This document shows positions 7,376 through 22,305 of a DNA stretch of 59,674 nt, in pieces; position 1 is the first letter of the stretch, and each line of letters opens with the position of its first letter. Origin of the DNA: Sulfoacidibacillus thermotolerans (GTDB lineage: Bacteria; Bacillota; Bacilli; Alicyclobacillales; SLC66); contig NZ_MPDK01000015.1 in assembly GCF_003144315.1 (NCBI RefSeq), positions 1 to 59,674 of the forward strand, in the 5' to 3' direction. Made by a program: the position numbers and the translations under genes. A model generated the notes under the pieces. The model searched no databases, was not told where the DNA came from, and worked only from the letters and a program-made list of their open reading frames with translations.

Positions 7376-8968
7376 ATGTCTCTCTCTACTTTTTTTGGAC
7401 TTAATATCGGCGTCAGTGCACTCGATACCATGCAACAGGCGGAAGATGTAGTTGCAAACAATATTTCAAACGCCAATACGCCTGGGTATGTGCAAGAGGC
7501 TCCGCAATTACAAGAGACGACAGCATATCCTCCGATTCCGGCCCAAGATCAGCCCATCATGGGAGGTCAACTTGGTCAGGGTACCTATGTCAGTGAAGTC
7601 ACACGTGAAACAAACGCTTTTGTCAACGAACAAGATCGCACGAATCAATCCAACTATTCGATGTATCAAACATACCATACCAATTTAAGTCAGATTGAGT
7701 CTATTTTGAATGAACCTAGTTCGAACAGTATGCAAAACGCTGTGGATCAGTTTTTTTCTGCATGGCAAACTCTATCTACAGATCCTTCAAATACGGCCGC
7801 TAGAGAATCTGTAATTGCCGAGGCGCAAACACTGGGTCAAACTTTTCAGACCATCACAACGCAACTAGAGAGTCTTCAATCCAACTTGGTTGGGCAAATT
7901 CAAAATCAGGTTCAGGAATTAAATCAGTATGCGAGTGAAGTCGCCCAATTAAATAACCAGATCGTGCAAATTAACGCAATGAACCCCGGACAGACACAGG
8001 CGGGCCAAAATACCCAATCTGAAAGTCCGAACCAGTTGCTTGATCAGCGCGGATACATCCTTGACCAAATGTCAAAACTCGCCAACATTTCTTACGCGCA
8101 AGTCACGGGTGACGCTTTTGCCGTCAGCATTGGAGCAGGTCCTACACTTGTGACACTTGTGAATGGCTCATGGACATATACGCCACTTGCAACAGCTACC
8201 CTTTTGCCGTCGGCAACGAGTTTAGTCACTTCGACTGCAAACGCCACTTCACCACTCGGCGTAACACTTTCGGAGATTACATCTGGAAGCATTGCTGGTA
8301 ATGCACAAGGATTAAATTATACAGATCAGTTGCTTGCAAACCTCGATAGCTTCCTCTCGTCATTTGCAAGTCAAGTGAATACAGTACAAGGCCAAGGCTA
8401 CCCACTCAGTGGCTCTTCAACAACCGCACAAATTACTGCAACTGCGGGTGGTAATACATATAATTACGGGGATCTATTCACCTCAGCAACAACAGCATCT
8501 GGTAATTTAGTCTTATCTATAAATCCGCTCTTTCTTCAAACGAGCGGCACGAATTTTATTGCTGCATCTAACGCTCCTAACCAACCAGGGAACAATGCAA
8601 ACGCAATGCAGATGATCAACCTGCAAACAAACCCAATAACTGCCACTTATACCTCCTATTCGGGTTATACAATCTCATCAAATCCTAGCTATCAAAGTTC
8701 ATCCTATAGTCAAGCATCCACTGCAGATCAGTATATGGCGAGTCTCGTATCGAATCTAGGCGTTGAAACATCCGCAGTAAAATCCAGTGAAGCCACAGCA
8801 AATGCGCTTGCACAACAGTCATCAAACCTCAGGCAGTCCATTTCTGGGGTAGACACAAATGATCAAGCCGCGAAGATGGTTGAATATCAAAATAGCTATG
8901 ATGCTGCGGCAAAGTTTATCAGTGTTTACGATCAGATGCTTCAATCTTTAATCAATATGATTCCATAA
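7376..8968 (+). CDS. flgK: Flagellar hook-associated protein 1
   Basis: FlgK forms the first junction layer between hook and filament outside the cell. The 530-residue protein begins with the rod/hook-type helix (FFGLNIGVSALDTMQQAEDV) and the NNISNANTPGYVQE motif shared by flagellar axial proteins. It ends with the conserved coiled segment DQAAKMVEYQNSYDAAAKFI. The central part is Thr/Ser/Gly-rich, like an exposed domain. ATG 7376 is chosen because AGGAGGAA lies at 7363-7370; the frame is open 12 codons upstream but without a binding site. It is followed by flgL after 28 bases. Confidence 0.96.
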   Translation: MSLSTFFGLNIGVSALDTMQQAEDVVANNISNANTPGYVQEAPQLQETTAYPPIPAQDQPIMGGQLGQGTYVSEVTRETNAFVNEQDRTNQSNYSMYQTYHTNLSQIESILNEPSSNSMQNAVDQFFSAWQTLSTDPSNTAARESVIAEAQTLGQTFQTITTQLESLQSNLVGQIQNQVQELNQYASEVAQLNNQIVQINAMNPGQTQAGQNTQSESPNQLLDQRGYILDQMSKLANISYAQVTGDAFAVSIGAGPTLVTLVNGSWTYTPLATATLLPSATSLVTSTANATSPLGVTLSEITSGSIAGNAQGLNYTDQLLANLDSFLSSFASQVNTVQGQGYPLSGSSTTAQITATAGGNTYNYGDLFTSATTASGNLVLSINPLFLQTSGTNFIAASNAPNQPGNNANAMQMINLQTNPITATYTSYSGYTISSNPSYQSSSYSQASTADQYMASLVSNLGVETSAVKSSEATANALAQQSSNLRQSISGVDTNDQAAKMVEYQNSYDAAAKFISVYDQMLQSLINMIP

Positions 8969-8996
8969 CAACTTTCAATTAGGTGAGGTCCTGTTT

Positions 8997-10301
8997 ATGC
9001 GTATTACTCAAAACATGATGACAAACCAGTTTATTTACAACATTACAAACGAACAGCAAACAATGCAAACACTTGAAAACGAGTTGTCTACCGGCAAAAC
9101 TTTGACTCGTCCTTCTGACAATCCACTTGCCGTTTCTCAGGACATGTCAGTTCGTGCAACACTCAGTCAAACAGCCGCTTATCAATCAACCATTAACTCA
9201 GGTCTCAGTTGGATGAATGATACCAGTTCAGCAGTTCAACAGATTCTCTCTACTTTGCAAAGTTTGCAAGGTACCGTTCTTGAAGGGATCAATACGACAA
9301 GTAAAAGCCCGGCAACACTAGCTGCACTTTCACAAACAGCGCAAGAACTTGCTGCAAACATTGGTCAAACACTAGATGCAAAACAAGGTAATCGTTACTT
9401 GTTTGGCGGTGTGCAAATCGATACACAAGTTGCCTCTGTTACACAAGTTCCTTATAGTCCGACAGATATGGCTGTAGTGAACGGTACGACGACGTCAACC
9501 ACAGGCTATTATGATCTACCGGAAACTCCTGGGAATCCTATGGTTGCCTCAATTACAGGTTCCAATACTACGCTGAGTACAAATCAACCCTATGAATTGC
9601 AAGTTGCCGTGTCTACTTCTGGAACTACAACTTTCACTTTGTCAAATCCAATTAATCAGACAGTAATTGCCTCAACACAAGTGGCCAGCACGCCTGTTGC
9701 CGGTTCTAGTGTCACCTTAATCGGACCCGCATCGCCGAGTGGCTCCCCTTCAACTTATGCACTGACTTTATCAAATTCATATGCTGTAGCTGCTGGAACA
9801 ACACAGTCTGATCTTCTCATTCCGAGTACTCACTTAACGAATCCCTATAGTGTGGCGAGTTCTGCATCTGGAACGATCTCTTATGAAGTAGCACCAGGTG
9901 TCGAAATTCCAGTCAATGTGACAGCGCAACAAATCATGCGAACTTCTCCGGATGGATCTTCTCCCTCACTGCAAACAACATTGCAAAATATTGCTGTTGA
10001 CTTGCAGACAGGGAACTCATCCAATCTTCAATCAGATCTTGCCGCCCTTCAAGAAAACATCACAAACATCACAAATATCAACGCGGATTTAGGAGCTCGT
10101 ATTCAACGCTTAAATGCCTTGAAAAACCAAATGAGTAACTATCAAACGACGCTTACTTCTGAAAAGGGGGTGATAGAAGGCGCAAATATGGCGAAGGTCA
10201 TCAGTCAGTTTAATACCGATCAAACTGTCTTTACTGCCGCATTAAAGATGGGATCTGAAATTTTACTGCCTTCCCTCGTCAATTTTCTGCCAAATGGTTA
10301 A
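8997..10301 (+). CDS. flgL: Flagellar hook-associated protein 3
   Basis: FlgL is the second junction protein and connects FlgK to flagellin. The 434-residue protein starts with MRITQNMMTNQFIYNI, shows the flagellin-like LSTGKTLTRPSDNPLAVSQ near residue 32 and GNRYLFGGVQ near residue 130, and closes with a flagellin-like terminal helix. Between about residues 150 and 310 it carries a Thr/Ser-rich insert not found in the shortest FlgL proteins, probably an exposed domain. ATG 8997 has AGGTGAGG eight bases upstream. It belongs to the flgM-flgN-flgK-flgL operon. Confidence 0.94.
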   Translation: MRITQNMMTNQFIYNITNEQQTMQTLENELSTGKTLTRPSDNPLAVSQDMSVRATLSQTAAYQSTINSGLSWMNDTSSAVQQILSTLQSLQGTVLEGINTTSKSPATLAALSQTAQELAANIGQTLDAKQGNRYLFGGVQIDTQVASVTQVPYSPTDMAVVNGTTTSTTGYYDLPETPGNPMVASITGSNTTLSTNQPYELQVAVSTSGTTTFTLSNPINQTVIASTQVASTPVAGSSVTLIGPASPSGSPSTYALTLSNSYAVAAGTTQSDLLIPSTHLTNPYSVASSASGTISYEVAPGVEIPVNVTAQQIMRTSPDGSSPSLQTTLQNIAVDLQTGNSSNLQSDLAALQENITNITNINADLGARIQRLNALKNQMSNYQTTLTSEKGVIEGANMAKVISQFNTDQTVFTAALKMGSEILLPSLVNFLPNG

Positions 10302-10351
10302 TCGTCCTTAGACATCATCGTACTTAACTATAAGAAGGGAATGAACATACT

Positions 10352-11701
10352 ATGTCAAGTTTTTTTAGCGTGAATAACAACGCGCAAGCACAATCTATTC
10401 TTCAAAACCTAGACAATGTACAAAATAACATTAACAGTGAATATTCTGCGTTGTCGACAGGCAACAGCATTAATTCTGCAGCTGATAATCCTGCAGGTTA
10501 CTCTATTGCCCAACAAATGACTTCTCAAGTCAACGGTTTGAACCAAGCCACACAAAATGCACAAAATGGAATTAGCATGATTCAAACTGCTACAGGTGCA
10601 ATGAACCAAATTGAAACAATTATGCAGACAATGTCCAGTTTGGCAACTGAAGCATCTACCGCAGGGATGTCTTTCTCCGACCGAGCGAACCTACAGTTAG
10701 AAATGAACTCTTTAGCTCAACAAATTAACAGCACCACCAATCAAACGCAATATAATGGCATCAATCTGCTGTCAGGACAATTTGCGGCAAGCGGTGCATC
10801 CGGGACGCAAAATTTAACCGTGCAAGCAGGTGCCGATCAAAGTCAAACGCTCTCTTTTAACATCGCTGCAACAGATGTTGTAAGTTTAGGCGTTGCTGGA
10901 ACTTCCGCTGCTGGTGGATCCGTAGCCCAAGCTTCTTTGGCAAATGCTGGATCCTCCTCTACGAATGGTGCTGCGTTATCATCCGTCTCTTCACCCACTA
11001 CTCTACTTACAGGGTCAAATGCGGTTTATTTTGGGGCAAATACATTATTCCAAGCCGGCCAACAGTTCCAAATCGTCGTAACTGCCAATCTCAGTGGGAC
11101 AAGCACACTGGCAACAGTTACATCCGAAACTCTACAATTACAAACCTTAAGTGGAAATGATATTGGAGCCGCTTTCACAATAACTCCAGGTTCATCAGGT
11201 ACAGTTACGCTCGGCGATCCTTCCACTGGAGCAGAGCTCTCCGTAAATCTGTCTACTCAACCTACCACGGGTACGGTGAGTTCAACAGGAACTGGTACGT
11301 ATACTGGCATTATCTCATTTGCTGCACCAACATCAGGCACATCAGCGCCGGTTGCCGGAAATCAATACAATAATTGGACAGCATCTGCGAATGTCTTTGG
11401 GTTAAACATCATGAATCAAGCAAGTGCACAACAGGCGATTACCACACTACACAATGCGATTAACGAGCTTTCCAGCGAACAAGCTCAACTTGGCGCTGTA
11501 CAAGATCGTTTGAATTACACCGTATCAAATCTGCAAAATTCATCCGAAAATCTGCAAAACGCAAAGTCGACGATTACGAATACCAATATGGCGGCTGAGT
11601 ACACGCAGTTTTCGCAAAACCAAATTTTGGATCAGGTCGGTCAAAGTATGTTGGCACAAGCAGATCAACAACCGGCTTCCATCTTAAAGTTACTTCAATA
11701 G
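10352..11701 (+). CDS. hag: Flagellin
   Basis: This is the filament subunit. The 449-residue protein has the conserved N-terminal D0/D1 helices (LSTGNSINSAADNPAGYSIA near residue 36 and TQYNGINLLSG near 130) and the C-terminal D0 helix ending in ILKLLQ. The middle, about residues 180-345, is rich in Ser, Thr, Gly and Ala and is probably the exposed D2/D3-like domain, a likely target of the glycosyltransferases encoded downstream. The N-terminus MSSFFSVNNNAQAQ departs from the usual MRINHN start. The segment equivalent to the TLR5-recognised QRVREL stretch reads QTMSSLATEAS and lacks its arginine. ATG 10352 has AAGGGAA upstream. Confidence 0.95.
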   Translation: MSSFFSVNNNAQAQSILQNLDNVQNNINSEYSALSTGNSINSAADNPAGYSIAQQMTSQVNGLNQATQNAQNGISMIQTATGAMNQIETIMQTMSSLATEASTAGMSFSDRANLQLEMNSLAQQINSTTNQTQYNGINLLSGQFAASGASGTQNLTVQAGADQSQTLSFNIAATDVVSLGVAGTSAAGGSVAQASLANAGSSSTNGAALSSVSSPTTLLTGSNAVYFGANTLFQAGQQFQIVVTANLSGTSTLATVTSETLQLQTLSGNDIGAAFTITPGSSGTVTLGDPSTGAELSVNLSTQPTTGTVSSTGTGTYTGIISFAAPTSGTSAPVAGNQYNNWTASANVFGLNIMNQASAQQAITTLHNAINELSSEQAQLGAVQDRLNYTVSNLQNSSENLQNAKSTITNTNMAAEYTQFSQNQILDQVGQSMLAQADQQPASILKLLQ

Positions 11702-11721
11702 TTTCCTGTATTTCATGATCT

Positions 11722-11740
11722 AAAGGGTTGATTTCCCTTT
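11722..11740 (+). terminator. Weak hairpin after flagellin
   Basis: AAAGGG (11722-11727) and CCCTTT (11735-11740) form a six-pair stem with a seven-base loop, followed by one further T. It lies about 20 bases after the flagellin stop. It is too weak to be sure of termination. Confidence 0.3.
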
Positions 11741-11751
11741 TCATCAACGAG

Positions 11752-11775
11752 CCGCGCGCGATGTATAGCGCGCGG
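11752..11775 (+). other. GC-rich hairpin between flagellin and fliD
   Basis: CCGCGCGC (11752-11759) and GCGCGCGG (11768-11775) are perfect complements around an eight-base loop. No T-run follows. It may slow decay of flagellin mRNA or attenuate read-through into fliD, which would help keep flagellin far more abundant than its cap protein. It ends about 28 bases before the fliD start. Confidence 0.55.
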
Positions 11776-11803
11776 TATTCCCATCATTACAGGAGGAGAC
11801 GGC

Positions 11804-13369
11804 ATGTCCATAAACCTGTTGCAACAACTCAATTCAATCCCTAACTTGGGTGGCACTGGTCTTCCTGTTCAACAATACGCGTCCGAAATGCAACAAGTTT
11901 TAACAGCACAATTTGAGACGATCCCAAATTCCGAACTTTCCACACTCTCTACGACGCAAAATGCATTAAACAGTTTACAACCTGCATTGCAGCAACTTCA
12001 GTCTGCTACACAAACATTAGCTAGTTCACTCAGTTGGAATGCTGTTCATTTAACGACGACAGGGTCTGGTTTTACTGCCACAGCACAAGCTGGCGCGGAA
12101 CCTTCTTCTTACACGATTCAAGTAAACAATCTGGCCACTGCCCAGTGGAATACGGCATCTGTCAGTTTGGCGACGTCTACAGGCAGCTCCACATTGACCG
12201 CAGGAACTTTTGCCATCACCCCCTCTTCCACTTCTCAGTTGACGGGAACTGCGACGATCACCGTCACTAGCGGGGAGAGTTTAAGTGATATTGCGGCGGC
12301 AGTCAATCAAGATAGTGCAGCAACGGGAGTGGTCGCTTCCATCATCCAAAGTAATAATGGATATCAATTGACATTTCAAGATGTCAACCCCGGTGCGACA
12401 AATACCTTTAGCCTTACGGATGTCAGTGGCAATGTGATTTCCTCACAACTAAAAGTCACACAGACAGCAACGGCAACAGATGCTTCAATCACCCTGGATG
12501 GTTCAATGACGCTCACGTCATCCAGTGATACATTTGCGAATGCCATTCCAAACGTCACGATCAATGTCAATCAAGCTGGAGCATCAGGAACCATTCTTTT
12601 AGCTCAAGATTCTTCTGCAGCCCTATCAGCCGTGCAGAATTGGATGAATGCTTATAATTCGGTGATTTCAACTCTACACACAGATACTGCCTACACGCCA
12701 GCTTCTGCATCAAATCCGGCCGCTGGTGCACAGACAGGTCCACTCTTTACGGATCCAGCAGCCACTGGATTATTAGCGCAGCTTCCAAATTCAGTAAATT
12801 CCTTTATCGGCGCGAGTGGAGCAACTGGGTCCTCAAATTTCTATCATTCACTTTCTCAACTTGGCATTGTCGTTGATCCAAATACAGGGCAACTCGAGTT
12901 TCAATCAGCAAGTGGGTTCGCTGCGAACCCTGCATCTGGAACCGCTGGATTTTCTGGTACTTTACAGTCAGGACAAGCAATGTTTACGCATGCAGTGCAA
13001 AGTAATCTTGCAGCGGTACAACAACTTTTCGGTGTCGTACAAACTTCTTCGCTTTCATCTGAGGTCCCCACAAATGGTATATTAGGGAATCTAAATACAG
13101 TATTAAATGAATTTTTAGGGTCTGGTTCCTCGACAGGAGTCATTTCTGGTGAGTTGCAATCTATTTCACAACAACAAAAAGAGATCAATCAATATTTAAA
13201 ACAAGTAAATCAAATGATTACAAACAATGTGCAAAACTTTACTTCACAATTAAATAATTTAAATGCATCATTACAGCAATCAAGCGCACAAATGCAGCAA
13301 ATAAACGCCATGTTAAATGGTGCATCAAGTTCCAGCAGTAGTTCTAGTTCTAATTCCTCAGGTGGATAA
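11804..13369 (+). CDS. fliD: Flagellar filament cap protein
   Basis: FliD forms the cap under which flagellin subunits fold at the filament tip. The 521-residue protein has the FliD N-domain (residues about 18-115, starting GTGLPVQQYASEMQQVLTAQ), a Ser/Thr-rich middle, and the C-domain with a long terminal coiled coil rich in Gln and Asn (about 430-505). It ends in a run of about nine serines plus Gly, an unusual low-complexity tail. ATG 11804 has AGGAGGAG upstream. As in Bacillus it follows flagellin and precedes small chaperone genes. Confidence 0.93.
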   Translation: MSINLLQQLNSIPNLGGTGLPVQQYASEMQQVLTAQFETIPNSELSTLSTTQNALNSLQPALQQLQSATQTLASSLSWNAVHLTTTGSGFTATAQAGAEPSSYTIQVNNLATAQWNTASVSLATSTGSSTLTAGTFAITPSSTSQLTGTATITVTSGESLSDIAAAVNQDSAATGVVASIIQSNNGYQLTFQDVNPGATNTFSLTDVSGNVISSQLKVTQTATATDASITLDGSMTLTSSSDTFANAIPNVTINVNQAGASGTILLAQDSSAALSAVQNWMNAYNSVISTLHTDTAYTPASASNPAAGAQTGPLFTDPAATGLLAQLPNSVNSFIGASGATGSSNFYHSLSQLGIVVDPNTGQLEFQSASGFAANPASGTAGFSGTLQSGQAMFTHAVQSNLAAVQQLFGVVQTSSLSSEVPTNGILGNLNTVLNEFLGSGSSTGVISGELQSISQQQKEINQYLKQVNQMITNNVQNFTSQLNNLNASLQQSSAQMQQINAMLNGASSSSSSSSSNSSGG

Positions 13370-13436
13370 TCATATGAATTTGTTTGTCATGCATTCATAA
13401 TCATTCCGAGTATGCTACACTTCGCGAGGGATGAAG

Positions 13437-13754
13437 ATGAGAGACCGACTTTTAAGAGTAATAGAATTAGGAACCCTAGCGATGACTGCGATCGAACACA
13501 AGCAGTATTATCAAACGTATGTAGTGATGCGTGAGCGAACAGAAGCGATTCAAGCACTTCTTGAAGTACAGCAAGGTAACCAAGCATCTGTTTCGCTGGA
13601 CCTAGCAGAGTTGCATGAACTACAACAGCAAACGCTTGCTCTGCAGCAAGCGTTACAAACTGCAATACACCATGCACAACAGGCACTGCACAAAGAATTA
13701 CAATCTGCGAATGCAAGAAGAATCTACGCCAAACAGGAACATTTAAATCTCTAG
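13437..13754 (+). CDS. Putative flagellar chaperone (FliT-like)
   Basis: The 105-residue, wholly helical protein (RLLRVIELGTLAMTAIEHKQ, then Gln-rich helices) lies directly after fliD, where fliS and fliT usually sit. Because a clear fliS is found further on at 15770, this gene is the best candidate for FliT, the chaperone that holds FliD before export. FliT proteins share little sequence, so the call depends on size, helical content and place. ATG 13437 is favoured because GAGGG lies six bases upstream; ATG 13431 would overlap that site. Confidence 0.5.
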   Translation: MRDRLLRVIELGTLAMTAIEHKQYYQTYVVMRERTEAIQALLEVQQGNQASVSLDLAELHELQQQTLALQQALQTAIHHAQQALHKELQSANARRIYAKQEHLNL

Positions 13755-13850
13755 GAATACAAGGATATTTAACACATCATCTGTAGGAATGATCTGCAGT
13801 GACACTCTCTATGTAGAGAGCAACCAGTCTATTGAAAAGGCGCGAATGAA

Positions 13851-15773
13851 ATGCTTTTATCTGCATGTATGATTGTAAAAAATGAAGAACTGACGATTAG
13901 GCGCTGTCTAGAATCTTTACAAGGAATTGCCGATGAAATCATCGTCGTAGATACAGGGTCTACCGACAAAACAATGGAGATCGTGCAATCCTTTGGCTGC
14001 ACGATCATACAACACGAATGGCAAAATGATTTTTCAAGCGCCCGCAATGCTGGAATTACTCAGGCAAAGGGAGATTGGATTCTTGTCATCGATGCAGATG
14101 AATTTGTAGAAAGATTAGATCGGGAGAAGTTTTTCCAGTTTCTCAAAGCTACGGATGCAGAAGGGGTGTTTATTACAGTAAATAGTTTGATGGGCCCCCT
14201 CGCGCATCCGAGCAATATCTTTGCCATTCGTGTGATGCGTTTATTTCGCAAGGGACATTTGTACTCTGGAGCGATTCATGAACAAGTTGCAGATTCTGTT
14301 TTTCGCACCAAGCGTCCCATTGCAAAATACGATTTGATCCTCACGCATCTTGGCTATACAAATGAATTTGTTGCGATGCGCGCAAAAACGAAGCGCAACA
14401 CGCAGTTGATCGAACAAATGATTGAAGAGAATCCCAATGACCTGTTTCAAATCACGAATTTAATGGCTGAATACTCCATATCAGGACAACATACGCAGTG
14501 TGCAACGTTAAGTGAAAAAACGTGGAATCGCGTAAAAAAAATGCCAACTTCCGAATGGCCCAACTTTGCACCCCGTATGGTATCCATTTTAGTTGCTTCA
14601 CTCTGGGAACTTGGCAAACGCGAGGAAGCTCTCTCCTATATGCAAGAAGGGATTCGACTTTTCCCCTGGTTTACAGATTTTAAGAAACGTTATGCTGATA
14701 TGTTGATACTAAACAGTCAATTTCGTGCTGCAATTGAAACCCTGATGGAGTGTCGAAAACAAGGGGATACACAATTAGGACTCATTGAATTTCTTGAAGG
14801 CGCTGGTACTTATCTAGCAGCATACAGCTTAGGGGTAGCTTGGGCGCATGTTGGGGATGAAATGAACGCACGCAAGTGGTTCTTGCAATCTTTTTTTGAA
14901 AACCCAGCACAAGATAATACGTTATTACCCATAATAGGTCTGCTCCCTAAAGATCCGAAGCTATTAAGAGAATTCATCGAGCCACGTCTATACGATCCAA
15001 CAGCGTTTGCAACCTATGTTGAGATTTACTCCGGTTGGAATTATGAAGATGCTGATCGACTCATTGATCAACTTGAGAAAAAATACGGAGAATCAGAAGC
15101 TTCGCATCGTGCTCACATGTCTTTGTTGCGACTGGAGGGTACCGAAGCCCTTCACAAACGAGCACAAACTGTCAATTATGATATCGATTGGCTACTGCTC
15201 GGCATCCATTACCTTGAACTGGGAGATAAAGAACAAGCAAACTATGCGCTTTCACGTGCTAAAGTGCGTGGTGAATACCTGCTAAAGGTCATGACCTCTT
15301 TAGAAAATTCACCTGATTCTACATGGGGTTTACATGGGGTCATCCGCGATCTAATTGCTATGAACCCAACAACTTTATTGCAAAAATGGCTCCCACGCGC
15401 AATGGACATAGAAACATTTTGGATTACTCTTAAATGTTCACCACTGAAAAGTATGCTTGAAACAATCACATGGCCAGGTAAAACGGCGCATGAATGTGAG
15501 CAAAATGCGCTCAATCACTTCAATCAGAAAAACTATCGGGAAGCTTCGAAATGGTTAACCCGCGCACAACAGTTTGAAAAGACAGTAACACAATTTCTAC
15601 TTGAATGTGATTTAGCGTTAGCCGAAAATGACTTGCCAAAGGCTCGTAAAACGATCTTTGATGGAAAAAAACTGTATCCCGATTCTGAAATGCTAAAAAT
15701 TGCTTCAGATCAAATACATCCAAAACTCAATCCACTTGAAATCACACAGAAACTCGGGAGTGGTATGCAATGA
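13851..15773 (+). CDS. GT2 glycosyltransferase fused to TPR repeats, copy 1
   Basis: The 640-residue protein has an N-terminal GT-A glycosyltransferase family 2 domain (about residues 1-190): the opening LLSACMIVKNEELTIRRC, VVDTGSTDKT (D34) and the metal/nucleotide-binding DAD at residues 81-83. The remainder is helical and TPR-like (FPWFTDFKKRYADMLILN region, ARKWFLQSF and similar). Such GT2-TPR proteins transfer a sugar from a nucleotide donor to a protein or glycan. Here the location immediately after fliD and the 4-base overlap with fliS (ATGA) point to flagellin glycosylation. ATG 13851 has AAAAGG ten bases upstream. The sugar and acceptor residues cannot be deduced. Confidence 0.9.
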   Translation: MLLSACMIVKNEELTIRRCLESLQGIADEIIVVDTGSTDKTMEIVQSFGCTIIQHEWQNDFSSARNAGITQAKGDWILVIDADEFVERLDREKFFQFLKATDAEGVFITVNSLMGPLAHPSNIFAIRVMRLFRKGHLYSGAIHEQVADSVFRTKRPIAKYDLILTHLGYTNEFVAMRAKTKRNTQLIEQMIEENPNDLFQITNLMAEYSISGQHTQCATLSEKTWNRVKKMPTSEWPNFAPRMVSILVASLWELGKREEALSYMQEGIRLFPWFTDFKKRYADMLILNSQFRAAIETLMECRKQGDTQLGLIEFLEGAGTYLAAYSLGVAWAHVGDEMNARKWFLQSFFENPAQDNTLLPIIGLLPKDPKLLREFIEPRLYDPTAFATYVEIYSGWNYEDADRLIDQLEKKYGESEASHRAHMSLLRLEGTEALHKRAQTVNYDIDWLLLGIHYLELGDKEQANYALSRAKVRGEYLLKVMTSLENSPDSTWGLHGVIRDLIAMNPTTLLQKWLPRAMDIETFWITLKCSPLKSMLETITWPGKTAHECEQNALNHFNQKNYREASKWLTRAQQFEKTVTQFLLECDLALAENDLPKARKTIFDGKKLYPDSEMLKIASDQIHPKLNPLEITQKLGSGMQ

Positions 15774-16129
15774 ATCCTGCGGATGTGTATCGCCAACAAT
15801 CTGTACTGACAGCACCCTTACCAGTGAAACTCGCAAAACTGCACGAACGCGGCGCTTTATTAACTCGACAAGTACGTCATTTCACCGAGAACAACGAGAT
15901 CTTACGCGCACGCGACGCCATCACGCAAATTGAAGATATCATTACCTTTCTACGCAGTTCTTTAAACCCTGACTTAGAAGTTTCTTCTTATGTTGAAGCG
16001 ACATACATTTTCTATTACGATATGGCAGTTTCATGGTACATTGATCCAAATAAGGTATCTGAAGGCTATGATTCTATGTTAGAATTCTGGGAGAGTTGGG
16101 CACGCACATGGAGTCAAGTTCGCGATTAA
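15770..16129 (+). CDS. fliS: Flagellin export chaperone FliS
   Basis: FliS binds the C-terminal helix of flagellin, prevents premature polymerisation and delivers it to the export gate. The 119-residue protein matches the family layout: NPADVYRQQSVLTAPLPVKL at the start, then ARDAITQIEDIITFLRSSLN in the position of the conserved helix before the NxD(Y/L)E turn (NPDLEVSS), and a terminal helix with FWESWARTWSQV. The conserved N-terminal tyrosine is present. It overlaps the stop of the upstream glycosyltransferase by four bases and is followed 68 bases later by a second glycosyltransferase. FliS between two glycosyltransferase genes is unusual and suggests functional coupling. Confidence 0.85.
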   Translation: MNPADVYRQQSVLTAPLPVKLAKLHERGALLTRQVRHFTENNEILRARDAITQIEDIITFLRSSLNPDLEVSSYVEATYIFYYDMAVSWYIDPNKVSEGYDSMLEFWESWARTWSQVRD

Positions 16130-16197
16130 AATAACTATGCGAGACAGCGAGAATACTCGATTGTCGATCCGTATCGACTCAGTGAGGATGTGCTTCT

Positions 16198-18123
16198 GTG
16201 TTACTTTCAGCCTGTATGATCACAAAAAATGAAGCGTTGACTTTGCGTAAATGTCTAGAATCTCTGCAAGGGATCGCGGATGAAGTGGTCCTTGTCGATA
16301 CAGGATCTTCCGACGAAACAGTGGCTATTGCCCAAGAGTTTGGATGTAAAGTTTATACATATAAATGGAACCACGACTTTGCAGCAGCCCGTAACGAATC
16401 ATTACGTCATGCAACGGGAGACTTTATCTTAGTCATTGACGCAGATGAATATCTTGATGCAAGAGAAAAAGTAGGACTGCGCGATTTCTTAGCCAAAACG
16501 GATGCAGAGGGCATTTTTGTCATCTCAAAGAGTTATCTTGGATCACTTACACATTTAACAAGTGCAGTGCCCATTCGTGTCCTGCGCCTTTTTCGCAATG
16601 GGCACTTCTATACAGGCGCCATTCACGAACAGATTGCTGAGTCCATATTAAAAACTGGAAAGCCTGTTGTATCTTATGATCTGACCTTACACCATTTAGG
16701 ATATACGGATGAATTCTTAGCGCGACGCGCCAAAACAACGCGTAATACCGCATTGCTCGAAGCGGAGCTTCACCGCGATCCCCAAAATGTCTTTCAACGT
16801 TCCAATCTCATTGTCGAGTATATGCTACAAAAGGACTGGGTAAAGGCAGAGCGGCTCGCGGAAAAAACATGGCACGACATAAAAAGTACGCCCCCATCCT
16901 TATGGCCCAATTTTACTCCGCGAATCGCACTCAATTGGATGACAATTTTATGGGAACGCGGGAAAAAAGACGCTGCACTTCGAACTGGACAAGAAGCGAT
17001 ATACTTCTTTCCTTGGTATACGGATTTAAAGCGTCGATACGCCACGTTTTTAATGCTGCATCATCAAATCGCACGAGCCATTGATATTCTCATGGAATGC
17101 CGCGCACAGGGAGATGTAAAACCTGGACTCATCGAATCAATAGAAGGATCTGGAACTTATTTTGCCGCCTATGATCTTGGAGTAGCTTGGGCATTATTGG
17201 GGGACGATTTACAAGCACGGAGATGGTTTTTACAAGCGTTTCAAGAAAATACGGCTTTCGAAGCTGCCATCTCCCCGCTCATCATGCTTGCTCCAAATGA
17301 TCCCCAATTTTTATACGAGCATTTCGAAAAGCGAATTTGGGATACACATACCTACGGAAATTATGCTGAGGCATACGCAATCATCGGATTTGCACAAGCA
17401 AAAGAGGTCGTTTCACGTGCCGTACAAGCCTGTGGTGAGACCGAAACCACACATCGCGCGGCAATGGCACTTCTTGTAAACGAAGGAGAAGGACCACTTT
17501 CCAACTATGCGCAATTACATCCTGCAGATATCACATGGTTGCTTTTAGGAATCTATAAGTTAGAACAAGGAGATCAAGAGGGGGCACATATTGCCCTACA
17601 AAAAGCAGGTCCACGTGGTCATTACCTGCTCCATTTGCATCAATTGTTTCAATCAGATCAACAGGCTACATGGTCACTTTTGCCGATTGCCCGTGACCTA
17701 ATTGCAATGCGTGCAGAACGCTTCCTTCGCGCTCACTTGCACACAGCCCAAGACGTGGACAGCGCTTGGCTTTTACTTAAATATTCTCCTTTAAAACATC
17801 TCTTATTTGAAGTTGAGTGGCAGGGCCACTCTGTCTGGCAGTATGAGATGAATGCTTTGCGTGCCTTACAACAAAAACAATACGACCAAACCGCGATATG
17901 GCTAAAAAAAGCGCGCGCCGTTCAACCGACTGTCACTCAAACTGTGATGGAGTGCAATCTGCATTGGGCACAGCAAGATCAGCAAGCCGCGCGGAAATCC
18001 TTACTTGCTGGGAAAAAAATCTTTCCACATTCGGAGTTACTCAAACATCTTTCCGCCTTACTATACACAAAAACAGATCCCATCCAAGTTATGAAAAAAC
18101 TCAGGAACGGAACTTCAAGATAG
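16198..18123 (+). CDS. GT2 glycosyltransferase fused to TPR repeats, copy 2
   Basis: This 641-residue protein is a paralog of the one at 13851. It shares almost the same opening (LLSACMITKNEALTLRKCLE), VDTGSSDET (D34), the DAD motif at residues 81-83, the LHHLGYTDEF segment, and matching TPR-type blocks to the end, including MECRAQGDVKPGLIE. The two therefore arose by duplication, with fliS now lying between them. Start GTG 16198 has GAGG ten bases upstream. Having two full-length, apparently intact copies suggests that they add different sugars or act at successive steps on flagellin. It is followed 38 bases later by the large double-GT4 gene, so 13851-21356 is probably one transcription unit. 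Confidence 0.9.
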   Translation: MLLSACMITKNEALTLRKCLESLQGIADEVVLVDTGSSDETVAIAQEFGCKVYTYKWNHDFAAARNESLRHATGDFILVIDADEYLDAREKVGLRDFLAKTDAEGIFVISKSYLGSLTHLTSAVPIRVLRLFRNGHFYTGAIHEQIAESILKTGKPVVSYDLTLHHLGYTDEFLARRAKTTRNTALLEAELHRDPQNVFQRSNLIVEYMLQKDWVKAERLAEKTWHDIKSTPPSLWPNFTPRIALNWMTILWERGKKDAALRTGQEAIYFFPWYTDLKRRYATFLMLHHQIARAIDILMECRAQGDVKPGLIESIEGSGTYFAAYDLGVAWALLGDDLQARRWFLQAFQENTAFEAAISPLIMLAPNDPQFLYEHFEKRIWDTHTYGNYAEAYAIIGFAQAKEVVSRAVQACGETETTHRAAMALLVNEGEGPLSNYAQLHPADITWLLLGIYKLEQGDQEGAHIALQKAGPRGHYLLHLHQLFQSDQQATWSLLPIARDLIAMRAERFLRAHLHTAQDVDSAWLLLKYSPLKHLLFEVEWQGHSVWQYEMNALRALQQKQYDQTAIWLKKARAVQPTVTQTVMECNLHWAQQDQQAARKSLLAGKKIFPHSELLKHLSALLYTKTDPIQVMKKLRNGTSR

Positions 18124-18161
18124 TTTTCATGATAAAATTTGCATCTTGACGGAGGAACAGT

Positions 18162-21100
18162 ATGACATCGATCTATTGGGAAGGCCCAATGTATTCTTCA
18201 GGAAGTTTGGCCCATGTCAATCGTGAACTATGTGCAAGATTAGGCATGCACTCTGCCATCGAATTAGGTATTATCCCCGATAGCCCAGATCATCCCGAAA
18301 TGTTTAAAGAGAAGAATTTCAATCAATTAACTTCTTTCTATTACCGTAATCTATCCAAAGTAGATTACCACATTCGACAACAGTGGCCCCCAAATTTCTC
18401 CGCGCCTCGTCAAGGAAAATGGGTTCTTTTCCAACCATGGGAGTTCGGTTATATACCAAAAACCTGGGTATTTCACGCTTTATATCAAATAGATGAGATT
18501 TGGGTGAATAGTCAATATACAAAGAAAATGTATACAGATTCGGGAATCCCCGACGAAAAAATATTTTCCTTCCCTCTAGGAATAGATACAAATTTATATA
18601 CGCCTAGTGGAGAACACCTCCAATTAAAGACGGAAAAGAAGTTTAAATTCCTGTTTGTGGGTGGAACAATTTGGAGAAAGGGAATCGATATTCTATTACA
18701 AGCATACATCAATAGATTCACAAAAAATGATGATGTATGCTTAATTATCAAGGATTATGGCGTTCATTCATTTTATCAAGGACAGACGAGTCAAGAGACA
18801 ATCCAAAAAATTCAAATGACCCCGAATACACCTGAGATCATATACATAAAAGATGAATTATCCCCACAACAAATGGCGGCTTTATATAGAACTTGCGATG
18901 TCTTAGTTCATCCTTATCGCGGCGAAGGGTTTGGACTTCCGATTCTAGAAGCAATGTCTTGTGGGATTCCTGTCATAATCCCAGATCAGGGTCCAGCCGT
19001 TGAATTTACCAATAAAAATTGCGCATTGTTCGTACCATCAAAAATTCAAACAGGTACAGAACAAACAGACCTTGTGTCAAATCTAAAGTGGATTGAAGTA
19101 CAGCCCGAAGTCCTTAGCGAAACATTAAGTCTCGCTCTTAAATATCAAAACACGCTACATGAAATGGGTAGAAATGCGGCGCAGTTAGCACATTCACAGT
19201 TTACATGGGAACAATCAGCGGATCACATCCTAAAACACCTAGAAAGTGCGGATTACTCAGATATACCAACAAGATTTCAGCCCAAAGCATGGTATAGCAT
19301 CGGGCAACACCACTTTTTTAATCAGCAATGGGACGCTGCAGAAGCAGCCTTTGCGAAAGCAATAGAAATCGATGCTCATGATGTAAGATCTGCTATTGCA
19401 CATGCGAGTTGTCTCATTGAAATTGGGCAACTAGGTCGTGCAGTTACAGAACTACTGACTTTGCGCAAACAATTCGTCCCTGCACCATATCATCAAGAGA
19501 TTCTTCTCTTACTTGCAAAATCAATGACTAAGTTACAACGTCTTCAGGAAGCAAAAGAATACTGCATAGAAGCTCTTACACGATCTAATAACGAAGAAAT
19601 CTCATTGTTATTACGTGAAATAGATTCTAAATTAGCAGATCAAAAAAAATTGATTTCATCTGAAGTACACACCCTTGTCCACACAAACCATAGTCAACAA
19701 TGGATTGATTCACGAATCGAAAAATTAAATAGACAGTTTTTGGGTGTCTATCAAAAAGGAGAGAGAGTTCTTTATTTAAATAGAGAGGGCTTACCCGCGA
19801 ATCATAAAGTTATTTCATCAGAAGTAGAATATCACGTTTTCAATTTACCAAATTCTGCTTTAGATGAATTAAATAACGGTTCTATTTCGGCATTTTTGTC
19901 TTTGATAAGAGAACTTTTTCATCAATTTCAATATCAGGGGATCATTATGGATAAATTTATTGAAACCCTCCCCGTAAAACTAGCATCCCAAATTTTTAGC
20001 GCGATCAAGGAACTCGCAGCTCCTAATTTTCGGTTGATTATTACTTATTCTAACGTAAGTACACTTGAACTGTTTGGAGAGTTTTGGGATAAAGAATCCA
20101 ATGTTCGACCGTATACTGAAGCTCTTCTAAACAAATTACTTCTCCATGCTGGATTTAAAATTAAAGAAATGAGCGAAAGGAATCGTGAAAAAAAGGAGAA
20201 CTATATCATCGCTTCTCAATATGCAATACCCACATTATGGGAGGCGCCCGTGTTAAATACTTCAGGTTATGCTACGGGAAACCAAAAGTTACTAGAGGCA
20301 TTACGAGCATATCCTCTATCAATACAGTTAAATCTTAGAGAGAATGATTCTAAACCCGAAGTATATGACGCTGATTTCGTTCAATATATCAAAGCATTGC
20401 AGTCTAATAAAATCATACAACCCATCATCCATTACCAAAATGTACCTGCCTATGGTTTTGTGCCACCGAATGCCGTGATCTCCATAGGTCGTACAATGTT
20501 CGAGACAGACCGTATCCCAGAAGATTGGGTTTGGAAATGTAATCAACTTTCAGAAATTTGGGTTCCTAGTACGTTTAATGTTGAGACCTTCGCCAAGAGT
20601 GGGGTAGATGAAAAGCGAATTAAAGTAATCCCAGAACCTTTTGATTTTGATTTTTTCACTCCATCGAAACTACCACTAGACAAAAAAGCACTACTTCCTG
20701 GAATCAAGTCATTTATCTTTTTCTCTAATTTCACATGGTTATACAGAAAAGGGTGGGATGTTTTAATCCGCGCTTATGTCGAAGAGTTTTCAAAATACGA
20801 TGATGTCACATTATTAATTAAGACCTCAAAAATGCAAATGAATGAATCACCCGAGAACGAGCTAAATAAGTTCTTAAAATCATTAGGTTATACTCGAGAA
20901 TCAGCCCCTCATATTGCAATGATTGACGGTAATCTTACGGAAGAACAGATTCGCTTACTCTACAATCTTTCAGATGCGTTTGTACTTCCAACTCGCGGCG
21001 AAGGTTGGGGGCGCCCATTTATGGAAGCAATGGCAATGGAATTACCCGTTATCGGTACAAACTGGGGAGGAAATACTTCCTTTATGAACAAATCAAATAG

Positions 21101-21356
21101 TTATCTCATAGAAATTGAGGGTTTAGAGGAAATAGGCCCCGAAATGAGTATAAATTTTTACCAAGGGCATTACTGGGCCAATCCCAGCATAACTTCTACG
21201 CGCTCGGCAATGAGAGAAGTTTATTCAAATTACAATACAGCAAAGAATGTGGCAATAAATGCAAGAGAAGATTTAAAAAATAGATTTGACTCACATTCTG
21301 TTACTCGATTAATCGTGGATAGAATTCAAGAGTTAGTCAATAGCTATTATGCCTGA
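18162..21356 (+). CDS. Large protein with two GT4 glycosyltransferase domains and a TPR block
   Basis: The 1064-residue protein has an N-terminal GT-B, GT4-type domain (about 1-360), with FVGGTIWRKGID and the EX7E motif from E255 to E263. TPR-like repeats follow (about 375-485), then a middle region (about 490-690). A second GT4 domain (about 700-1060) has FFSNFTWLYRKGWD and a second EX7E from E947 to E955. The middle region has the outline of a class I methyltransferase (RVLYLNREGL where motif I would be, and a late LLHAGFKIKEM) but lacks the glycine-rich signature, so it may be a non-catalytic remnant. ATG 18162 has GGAGG nearby. The DNA looks visibly richer in A and T than the flanking genes, which suggests lateral acquisition. 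Probable role: extending the flagellin glycan. Confidence 0.85.
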   Translation: MTSIYWEGPMYSSGSLAHVNRELCARLGMHSAIELGIIPDSPDHPEMFKEKNFNQLTSFYYRNLSKVDYHIRQQWPPNFSAPRQGKWVLFQPWEFGYIPKTWVFHALYQIDEIWVNSQYTKKMYTDSGIPDEKIFSFPLGIDTNLYTPSGEHLQLKTEKKFKFLFVGGTIWRKGIDILLQAYINRFTKNDDVCLIIKDYGVHSFYQGQTSQETIQKIQMTPNTPEIIYIKDELSPQQMAALYRTCDVLVHPYRGEGFGLPILEAMSCGIPVIIPDQGPAVEFTNKNCALFVPSKIQTGTEQTDLVSNLKWIEVQPEVLSETLSLALKYQNTLHEMGRNAAQLAHSQFTWEQSADHILKHLESADYSDIPTRFQPKAWYSIGQHHFFNQQWDAAEAAFAKAIEIDAHDVRSAIAHASCLIEIGQLGRAVTELLTLRKQFVPAPYHQEILLLLAKSMTKLQRLQEAKEYCIEALTRSNNEEISLLLREIDSKLADQKKLISSEVHTLVHTNHSQQWIDSRIEKLNRQFLGVYQKGERVLYLNREGLPANHKVISSEVEYHVFNLPNSALDELNNGSISAFLSLIRELFHQFQYQGIIMDKFIETLPVKLASQIFSAIKELAAPNFRLIITYSNVSTLELFGEFWDKESNVRPYTEALLNKLLLHAGFKIKEMSERNREKKENYIIASQYAIPTLWEAPVLNTSGYATGNQKLLEALRAYPLSIQLNLRENDSKPEVYDADFVQYIKALQSNKIIQPIIHYQNVPAYGFVPPNAVISIGRTMFETDRIPEDWVWKCNQLSEIWVPSTFNVETFAKSGVDEKRIKVIPEPFDFDFFTPSKLPLDKKALLPGIKSFIFFSNFTWLYRKGWDVLIRAYVEEFSKYDDVTLLIKTSKMQMNESPENELNKFLKSLGYTRESAPHIAMIDGNLTEEQIRLLYNLSDAFVLPTRGEGWGRPFMEAMAMELPVIGTNWGGNTSFMNKSNSYLIEIEGLEEIGPEMSINFYQGHYWANPSITSTRSAMREVYSNYNTAKNVAINAREDLKNRFDSHSVTRLIVDRIQELVNSYYA

Positions 21357-21409: not shown

Positions 21410-21439
21410 AAAAAACTCACCGCTCGCACTTAACGAGCG
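21410..21439 (-). terminator. Terminator-like hairpin at the end of comFC
   Basis: CGCTCG (21421-21426) and CGAGCG (21434-21439) form a six-pair stem that overlaps the comFC stop codon. On the minus strand it is followed five bases later by a run of T (21410-21415). The gap before the T-run makes it a moderate candidate. Confidence 0.4.
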
Positions 21440-22305
21440 ACAGTCAGAACGTTCACGCTAACGGCACCCGCTTGATAGAGAACTTCGGCACAGGCATCAG
21501 CTGTCCCACCTGTCGTTAACACATCGTCAATGAGGAGGATCGATTGACCTCTAACTAGGCGCTCGGCAAGCGACTGCGTGCTGTAACGACGCATAGATAA
21601 CCCAGTGCGATGGCCTTTCGTGCGAGTGGCCATCGTCTTTGTCGCACACTCTTTGTACAAGCGAAGCGCACGGCGATTGTATGCCAGCTGATTTGAGTGC
21701 GAAAGCGCAAATGCGCCACGCAATGACGCGATCCTCTCCTCGCGAGAATGCACAGTCTGGCTCTCGCTTAACACAATTTTCTCTAAAACATGGGCGGTTG
21801 GTAAACGCAACTTATTCACAAGATAAGCACTAAGATCTTCTGCTTGATTGAATCCCCTGCGCGTCTGCTTGACGGGATGCATAGGGATCGGCACAATCAG
21901 GTGATCTCGTGCATGGCCAAAATGCCGAGTATAAGCTTCACTCAACCACTCTCCTAATATGCGAACGAAACGTCGATCCCCTTGGTACTTAAGCCCTTTA
22001 AGTGCCAGTTCTAGTGTTCCCGCATAGCGTCCAAAGGAACGCGCCTCTAAAAACAGGTGGGGAGTTCTTGCACATTCACCACATAAGCCCCCTTGCCCAG
22101 AACGGCCACAGGTTCGGCACACCCCATTGGTGTGTTCAACAATGCCTTGTTCACAGCGTTCGCATAATTTGGGTACAAAAAAACGCCCCTGCGGAGTATG
22201 CTTAAAGATGTATCCGCAAAGTGGGCATGTAGCCGGGGCAGGAAACAGTAGATCGAGCAGAGCATCACCAAACACCCGTGGTAGTCGACTCCAACTCTTA
22301 CGCAA
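21430..22305 (-). CDS. comFC: ComF family protein ComFC
   Basis: ComFC is a phosphoribosyltransferase-fold protein needed for DNA uptake in competent bacteria, acting with the ComFA helicase. The 291-residue protein has N-terminal cysteine pairs (CPLCGY, CERCEQ, CRTCGRSGQGG-CGEC) that probably bind zinc, the VPIPMHPVKQTRRGFNQAE segment, and the PRPP loop ILLIDDVLTTGGT (about 256-268). Between about residues 205 and 246, just before the PRPP loop, there is an extra basic stretch (ALRLYKECATKTMATRTKGH) not seen in typical ComFC. Start is TTG 22305 after GAGGCGG. ComFA, usually adjacent in Bacillus, is not in the window, while degV lies next to it as in Bacillus. Confidence 0.9.
   Translation of the reverse strand: MRKSWSRLPRVFGDALLDLLFPAPATCPLCGYIFKHTPQGRFFVPKLCERCEQGIVEHTNGVCRTCGRSGQGGLCGECARTPHLFLEARSFGRYAGTLELALKGLKYQGDRRFVRILGEWLSEAYTRHFGHARDHLIVPIPMHPVKQTRRGFNQAEDLSAYLVNKLRLPTAHVLEKIVLSESQTVHSREERIASLRGAFALSHSNQLAYNRRALRLYKECATKTMATRTKGHRTGLSMRRYSTQSLAERLVRGQSILLIDDVLTTGGTADACAEVLYQAGAVSVNVLTVAR

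Follow-up and report, generated by a model that had tools for sequence, protein, structure and literature searches.

Pairing and fusion of a putative flagellin glycosyltransferase with the chaperone FliS in flagellar loci of the Alicyclobacillales

We analysed a stretch of DNA of 59,674 nucleotides from Sulfoacidibacillus thermotolerans, hereafter the window, which is one whole contig (C43) of an assembly of 2.87 Mb in 135 contigs that is 99.86% complete. Its flagellar locus carries fliS, the gene for the flagellin export chaperone, overlapping by 4 bases a gene for a protein that joins a family 2 glycosyltransferase (GT2) domain to a helical part of the tetratricopeptide repeat (TPR) type and that we call GT2a. 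In 20 other genomes of the order the same two parts form a single protein, and the codon at which the separate fliS would begin is kept as a start-type codon behind a strong Shine-Dalgarno (SD) sequence. The physical coupling of glycosyltransferase and chaperone is well supported by the sequences compared here. The closest known kind of enzyme is the GmaR-type flagellin glycosyltransferase, and the fusion to FliS with a retained internal start is new: among the open-literature matches listed, titles and abstract openings described no FliS-glycosyltransferase fusion, although with subscription journals mostly outside that search its absence is unproven.

Pairing and fusion across the order

Fifty-nine genomes of the order, that of the window included, were searched with the FliS family; 50 gave a match, and a 51st locus (G003) was recognised from its neighbourhood. 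Up to 20 kb around each fliS locus other than that of the window was mapped with ten profiles grown from window genes, by which other enzymes are visible only if looked for. Among these 51 loci, 20 carry an in-frame GT2-TPR-FliS fusion, five (the window, G001, G002, G024 and G048) a GT2-TPR gene that overlaps fliS by 4 bases, and three a GT2-TPR gene 1 to 44 bases upstream of fliS, that of G003 being split into two frames. One locus, G016, shows a TPR piece ahead of fliS next to a contig edge, two have a GT2-TPR gene, a family 4 glycosyltransferase (GT4) gene and a sulfotransferase-like gene ahead of fliS, four hold a Maf-like PF01973 gene in the interval from fliD to fliS, and three (G038, G041 and G052) have GT2-TPR in the flagellar cluster without its adjoining fliS; in 13 the ten-profile mapping found none of these transferase arrangements ahead of fliS. 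The slot between fliD and fliS recurrently holds transferases, and the arrangement in the window is not due to chance, because the order flgK-flgL-hag-fliD-small open reading frame (ORF)-GT2-TPR-fliS recurs, with variations, across two families. An earlier prediction, made from the window sequence without database searches (the original prediction), had named as the pattern that would speak against it related genomes in which these glycosyltransferases sit apart from flagellar genes. The three loci with a non-adjoining GT2-TPR gene and some shorter GT2 genes elsewhere in the window genome go part of the way towards this pattern; the full-length GT2-TPR type paired with fliS lies in a flagellar locus every time.

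In 20 of the 50 FliS-positive genomes the FliS match falls inside an open frame of 756-819 aa that starts with GT2, and the proteins, with FliS in frame at the C terminus, measure 751-811 aa when their starts are assigned mechanically. Nineteen of the 20 fused FliS matches exceed the Pfam cut-off and that of G057 falls just below it (25.8 against 26.7). When five fusions were scanned whole, GT2 and FliS both exceeded their Pfam cut-offs in four; the remaining one, L143, reveals its FliS by alignment only. Each of the 20 fused genomes has a single FliS match, some of these genomes being incomplete (G011 73%, G057 82%). The carriers include Alicyclobacillus sacchari, A. hesperidum, A. tengchongensis, A. 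sendaiensis, A. mali, A. montanus, Alicyclobacillus sp. SP_1, Ferroacidibacillus organovorans SLC66 and Alicyclobacillaceae bacterium I2511; in A. fastidiosus the two genes are separate. Assembly or sequencing errors were considered as a source of the fusions and rejected, given that 20 genomes agree and that few-contig assemblies are among them (G019 in 4 contigs, G020 in 1 and G058 in 2). The NCBIfam FliS model is absent from the matches (E up to 1e-3) of all four fusions scanned with it, so that fused genomes may appear to lack fliS.

Beyond the order, no fusion was found among 398 genomes across the phylum with a FliS profile (A2) that gave a match in 145 of them and that, being tuned to divergent FliS, misses canonical FliS. 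The longest frame there, of 498 aa (G395), is a stand-alone FliS, and others of 275 aa (G530) and 255 aa (G409) are far too short for a fusion. A search of the class, in which strong matches were listed and weak divergent FliS lay outside the scope, found FliS in at least 210 of 299 genomes.

The ancestry of the fusion was read from trees. In a joint tree of the glycosyltransferase and FliS parts (29 rows), which has long branches (G004, G008, G012 and G045) and a distant outgroup, all 20 fusions form one clade (support 97/94), with a single change shown by 98% of the 200 bootstrap trees and with the window genus and the G024/G048 pair outside. On this joint tree rest both the direction, from split to fused, and the view that the fusion is single and old. 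The single-part trees are less favourable to that view: the FliS-only tree mixes split and fused rows, with four changes and 0% of 200 bootstrap trees showing one, and the tree of the glycosyltransferase part, with one change, has weak support (72/99). The fusions are, moreover, all close kin, which makes their co-occurrences non-independent. The split genes may instead have arisen by fission of an ancestral fusion, in view of the mixing of rows in the FliS-only tree and of the far outgroup and long branches of the joint tree; we follow the joint tree, which has one change at 97/94.

A probable internal start in the fused genes

Every one of the 20 fusions has a start-type codon (15 ATG, 4 GTG and 1 TTG) at the place where a separate fliS would begin. 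Across 749 columns present in at least 12 of 14 representative fusions, just two are start-type in all 14, the gene start and the internal fliS start; the next-best column, start-type in 13, is a structural Met. Duplex energies with the anti-SD sequence were computed, in kcal/mol, for the 17 bases before a codon. The internal start has a mean of -11.6 kcal/mol, compared with -3.1 over the 1074 remaining in-frame start-type codons, and in 17 of the 20 fusions it outranks every other such site of its gene. The mean is -9.3 for the first start codon of separate fliS genes (31 loci) and -10.2 for the fusion genes' own start (20 loci), and the other true starts of the fusion loci, where true starts were scored favourably to controls, give -11.3 for hag (19 loci), -12.3 for fliD (20), -11.3 for flgK (19) and -8.1 for the small ORF (18). 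The excess over synonymous recodings has a combined p of 1.1e-6 over the 20 genes and 3.4e-6 over 14 lineages. The matched control was a structural Met, likewise conserved, which 19 of the 20 genes have some 14 codons further downstream; its mean is -2.1 and its combined p 0.99. L143, a fusion not among the 20 and related in this stretch to A. montanus, has its ATG behind GGAGGTG at -14.8, with 0 of its 52 other sites as strong.

A start-type codon and a strong SD sequence have both been kept; therefore one gene probably yields the glycosyltransferase-FliS fusion plus free FliS, and free FliS is thus very probably made from fused genes as well as from separate ones. Use of the internal start is here read from sequence, and some of the data are at odds with it. 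Gene by gene, 7 of the 20 fusions reach p < 0.05 against synonymous recoding, and 6 of the 20 have no excess (p 0.39-0.66). Codon and SD sequence could also be relics of the unfused state, which is unlikely because the fusions form one clade with end branches of up to 1.7 changes per column. If the two-product reading is true, these genes exemplify a fusion in which one of the joined proteins is still produced separately from a start codon of its own; among the open-literature matches listed, titles and abstract openings described no FliS gene with an internal start.

Enzyme, chaperone and a possible handover of flagellin

GT2a, which is the part joined to FliS in the relatives, has a paralogue, GT2b, downstream of fliS in the window. 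Both proteins have a PF00535 GT2 domain at the N terminus and are 47% identical across GT2a residues 2-638, which upholds the paralogy claimed by the original prediction; the TPR part that it gave to both gains Pfam matches (E up to 1e-3) in GT2a alone. The glycosyltransferase domain of GmaR (22ao) is the top PDB sequence match of both (phmmer, 8.8e-33 for GT2a and 3.2e-34 for GT2b), with ThuS and SunS next, and the IDADE and HEQ motifs align between GmaR and the window proteins. The GmaR structure 7x9r is also matched by phmmer, at 5.3e-9 over residues 140-378. The GT2 motifs are invariant in 22 aligned proteins (D81, D83, E84 and HEQ 143-145 in the numbering of L132, one of the fusions). An AlphaFold model of GT2a (pLDDT 90.3, pTM 0.87) has a GT-A-like alpha/beta domain of ~170 residues followed by a long helical part, with helices over 171-638. 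The first ~290 residues of this model superpose on SunS and ThuS with Z of 23.6-25.2 (SunS 25.2, ThuS 24.4). GmaR 7x9r is among the Foldseek matches listed for GT2a (E 1e-8, TMq 0.43 and rmsd 9.5 across 479 columns) and for the fusion, and is absent from the 50 matches of a second fold search with either. By sequence, and for GT2a also by model, the anatomy of GT2a and GT2b is that of a GmaR-type protein glycosyltransferase; flagellin would be the acceptor of the GT2-TPR enzyme, and GlcNAc, by analogy, the sugar transferred.

GmaR of Listeria monocytogenes is a protein of 637 residues with glycosyltransferase, TPR, linker and antirepressor domains that places GlcNAc on flagellin (PMC9638930). 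The window proteins resemble it in their N-terminal GT2 domain, similar length, TPR-type helical part and the two shared motifs. As for differences, GmaR is also an antirepressor of MogR, a role that is at most conjectural for the window proteins, and FliS is mentioned 0 times in the GmaR paper (PMC9638930). The likeness to SunS and ThuS is structural and lies in the first ~290 residues; those enzymes are shorter (417-421 residues in the structures), and both window proteins miss the equivalog cut-off of 350 bits of the SunS peptide S-glycosyltransferase family TIGR04195 (GT2a 92.2, GT2b 58.0). SunS and ThuS modify a secreted bacteriocin peptide. FlmG of Caulobacter crescentus, which the original prediction had cited, also combines TPR and glycosyltransferase in one protein that acts on flagellin in the cytoplasm, but its flagellin-binding part is N-terminal and its chaperone, FlaF, is a separate protein (PMC7591256). 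Here the glycosyltransferase domain is N-terminal and the helices follow, a domain order that excludes FlmG as the nearest relative; GmaR and SunS/ThuS are closer.

A model of the L132 fusion (769 aa; pLDDT 87.9, pTM 0.74) has glycosyltransferase and helical parts as in GT2a and matches SunS/ThuS with Z of 24.8-27.0. Residues 638-661, which take in the first residues of the FliS part, have pLDDT below 50, and the FliS part at 663-761 is predicted as four helices (663-686, 690-709, 716-737 and 739-761; block means 70-93). Matches to the glycosyltransferase and TPR parts fill the lists from the fold searches with the fusion, and these contain no FliS structure. In this model FliS looks tethered rather than embedded in the solenoid, and the linker to it is probably flexible.

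The chaperone itself is unusual. The window FliS, the sole FliS match of its assembly, reaches 35.6 bits with PF02561 (cut-off 26.7) and 26.9 bits with TIGR00208 (cut-off 53.75), and we assign it to a divergent subfamily because the latter match is weak. It lacks the canonical L[YF]DG motif and has a C-terminal FWxSWxxTW. Across the survey L[YF]DG is found in 0 of 31 glycosyltransferase-linked FliS compared with 17 of 20 others, and FWxSWxxTW in 26 of 31 compared with 0 of 20 (FliS alignments A2 and A3 comprise 20 and 9 rows). The 31 linked FliS form one clade on a long branch (100/99). The flagellins differ too: an Asn at the very C terminus is kept in 15 of 15 other filament flagellins and is Gln or Asp in 26 of 27 linked ones, a comparison from which 8 FlgL-like rows out of 23 rows were dropped and in which 4 of the 31 linked loci have no counted flagellin. 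This pattern is compatible with a chaperone that continues to bind the end of flagellin and has co-evolved, although the co-change belongs to a single clade and does not amount to several independent cases.

We consider it likely, taking the handover model as a whole, that GT2a is a GmaR-type flagellin O-glycosyltransferase with FliS as its dedicated partner. In this model GT2a would glycosylate flagellin in the cytoplasm, FliS holding the flagellin C terminus while the GT2-TPR part modifies the remainder, which would turn modification and delivery to the export gate into a single handover where two binding events would otherwise compete. Two overlapping genes would supply the pair in the window, the ribosome site of fliS being stronger than that of the enzyme gene (duplex energy -9.5 at the fliS start against -4.1 at that of GT2a); in the related lineages it would come in one chain, the internal start with its strong ribosome site still giving free FliS. 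A filament is built from many flagellins, and hence calls for much free chaperone and little enzyme. The simplest reading of the output is few enzyme-FliS molecules with free FliS in excess, because the fliS site is the stronger one in the window and the internal site of the fusions is on average at least as strong as their own start; the ratio of enzyme to chaperone protein would follow these sites. A bolder combination of claims is more tentative, falling as a whole somewhat short of an even chance: that the enzyme acts on flagellin already bound by the chaperone, opposite to the order in Aeromonas, that the fused gene makes two products, its one messenger fixing how much FliS serves modification relative to export, and that the window represents an overlapping-gene stage before fusion. 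The delivery of flagellin by FliS to the enzyme, as the original prediction had it, accordingly divides: the pairing of FliS with GT2-TPR is borne out by 20 fusions and by five genomes with the 4-base overlap, and the handover of flagellin is what we infer from it.

The proposal bears on the question of how cells ensure that flagellin glycosylation precedes export. In Caulobacter, FlmG and the export chaperone FlaF might compete for flagellin (PMC7591256), and a fused enzyme-chaperone would remove such competition; the fusion, together with the gradation found in nature between overlapping genes and a single gene, opens the handover to direct testing within one protein. The FliS of Campylobacter jejuni (PMC5466977) and the chaperone of Aeromonas (PMC4065374) prefer glycosylated flagellin. 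Several observations count against prior binding to FliS. Flagellin of Aeromonas caviae is glycosylated before the chaperone binds (PMC4065374), and that of Caulobacter is modified without FlaF (PMC7591256). The TPR part alone could bind flagellin, which would make presentation by FliS needless, and binding of the flagellin C terminus by FliS is assumed here for a divergent protein that lacks L[YF]DG.

These points lend themselves to a reading in which coupling concerns expression only: overlap and fusion would co-ordinate production of glycosyltransferase and chaperone, GT2-TPR would need only its own TPR part to recognise flagellin, FliS would act in a separate, later step, and the fusion is tolerated since the internal start supplies free FliS. 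The internal start and SD sequence kept in 20 of 20 fusions, the low confidence of the modelled junction, which resembles a disordered linker, glycosylation without prior chaperone in A. caviae and Caulobacter (PMC4065374, PMC7591256) and the unfused Maf-like genes in the same slot of four genomes all agree with it. We nevertheless consider it unlikely, as the fusion has been kept through deep divergence with the FliS domain intact, and both FliS and the flagellin C terminus differ in the linked group. It is highly improbable that GT2-TPR serves chiefly in regulation, in the way that GmaR acts on MogR in Listeria, with the attached FliS sensing unexported flagellin. GmaR homology over both the glycosyltransferase and TPR parts and an interaction of FliS with the anti-sigma factor FlgM, reported in a work cited in PMC5109656, speak for such a role, and the invariant glycosyltransferase motifs speak against it; MogR (PF12181) was found in 0 of the 59 genomes of the order, a result that does not show its absence since the control genomes gave none either. 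Equally improbable is an acceptor other than flagellin, be it FliD, FlgL, an S-layer protein or a small peptide as for SunS, with the FliS link serving something else. Although the nearest folds are the peptide S-glycosyltransferases SunS and ThuS, the GT2-TPR gene has a recurrent position in the hag-fliD-fliS locus and its partner FliS is a flagellin chaperone. GmaR, the top sequence match, modifies flagellin (PMC9638930).

The window locus and its presumed accessory transferases

On the + strand of the window the order is flgK, flgL, hag, fliD, a 107-aa ORF, GT2a, fliS, GT2b and a gene for a double-GT4 protein (Table 1). The gene calls and coordinates of the original prediction for the last four are correct, as is the 4-base overlap it described, but GT2a does not lie right after fliD, since the 107-aa ORF intervenes. 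A search of the assembly with PF00669 gave two matches, the second being FlgL, and hag is the sole filament flagellin.

Table 1. Features of the flagellar locus in the window
Feature	Position	Strand	Basis
hag, flagellin, 449 aa, presumed acceptor	10352..11701	+	Pfam Flagellin_N/C
fliD, filament cap	11804..13369	+	Pfam FliD_N/FliD_C
Small 107-aa ORF in the fliT position	13431..13754	+	Iterative profile, ORF prediction
GT2a, GT2 + TPR-solenoid protein, GmaR/SunS-like, 640 aa, proposed flagellin glycosyltransferase	13851..15773	+	Pfam, phmmer, AlphaFold model
SD-like GGGAG of fliS, within the GT2a 3' end	15756..15760	+	Sequence, duplex energy
ATGA, GT2a stop overlapping fliS start by 4 bases	15770..15773	+	Sequence
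fliS, divergent flagellin export chaperone, 119 aa	15770..16129	+	PF02561
GT2b, GT2a paralogue, 641 aa, GTG start	16198..18123	+	Pfam, alignment
Double-GT4 protein, 1064 aa, TPR stretch between both GT4 domains	18162..21356	+	Pfam
Terminator-like stem between operon and converging gene (21430-22305), listed for the - strand	21418..21442	.	Consensus scan

A small ORF of ~100 aa between fliD and GT2-TPR is conserved in 28 of 31 glycosyltransferase-linked loci by iterative profile. The window ORF has no Pfam or NCBIfam match at 1e-3, and a FliT match was obtained for just one of six homologues, at E 0.46, which does not establish it as FliT. The scan for promoter and terminator consensus that listed the stem in Table 1 gave an overall total not above shuffles, and a sigma-D type promoter pattern matched 46 times where 49 were expected and so gave no signal.

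GT2b and the double-GT4 protein are probably accessory transferases. GT2b occurs in all three genomes of the genus examined, with a related gene in G008 only, the third such gene of that genome, with which it groups in the glycosyltransferase tree (95/91). The 1064-aa protein has two GT4 stretches with TPR matches between them; in neither of the two sister genomes was its gene recognised next to fliS, and among 18 genomes of the family its only full-length relative is in G011 (41%). The idea that the GT2 pair acts in sequence, with the GT4 protein extending the chain, is unsupported. The relative in G011 (L230, from G011:C9:26001-29195) lies on the same contig as the flagellar locus of that genome, on the opposite strand.

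The nearest published Gram-positive setting is that of the flagellin glycosylation islands of Geobacillus, likewise thermophiles with GT2 and GT4 genes in the flagellar locus (PMC5109656). Those islands lie between flaA2 and flaG and reach up to 30.4 kb, whereas the window genes follow fliD and surround fliS; in that paper the words TPR and tetratricopeptide are absent and the passages on fliS name no fusion (PMC5109656). For Alicyclobacillus, no flagellin glycosylation was described in titles and abstract openings among the open-literature matches listed.

Elsewhere in the window genome, a stretch of another contig (L130, G000:C114:90000-109000) carries at 8106-13858 four more GT2 genes (366-492 aa), two of them with a TPR-type part; no flagellar gene was recognised around these four shorter genes in the stretch. 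In G003 the GT2-TPR gene (L091, 7885-10130) is split into two frames, with very divergent fliS and hag downstream, and decay of the system is possible there. The PF01973 proteins of 635-665 aa, which we take for Maf, share the fliD-fliS slot with GT2-TPR but belong to a separate protein family and are unfused to FliS in the genomes seen; their ORFs (L108 7992-9899, L113 10188-12095, L125 10123-12120 and L127 1087-2997) all run into the called fliS ORF. The sulfotransferase-like genes (PF13469, below the cut-off) lie between the GT4 gene and fliS at L107 10299-11630 and L109 8511-9848, where a sulfated flagellin glycan is possible from the gene content.

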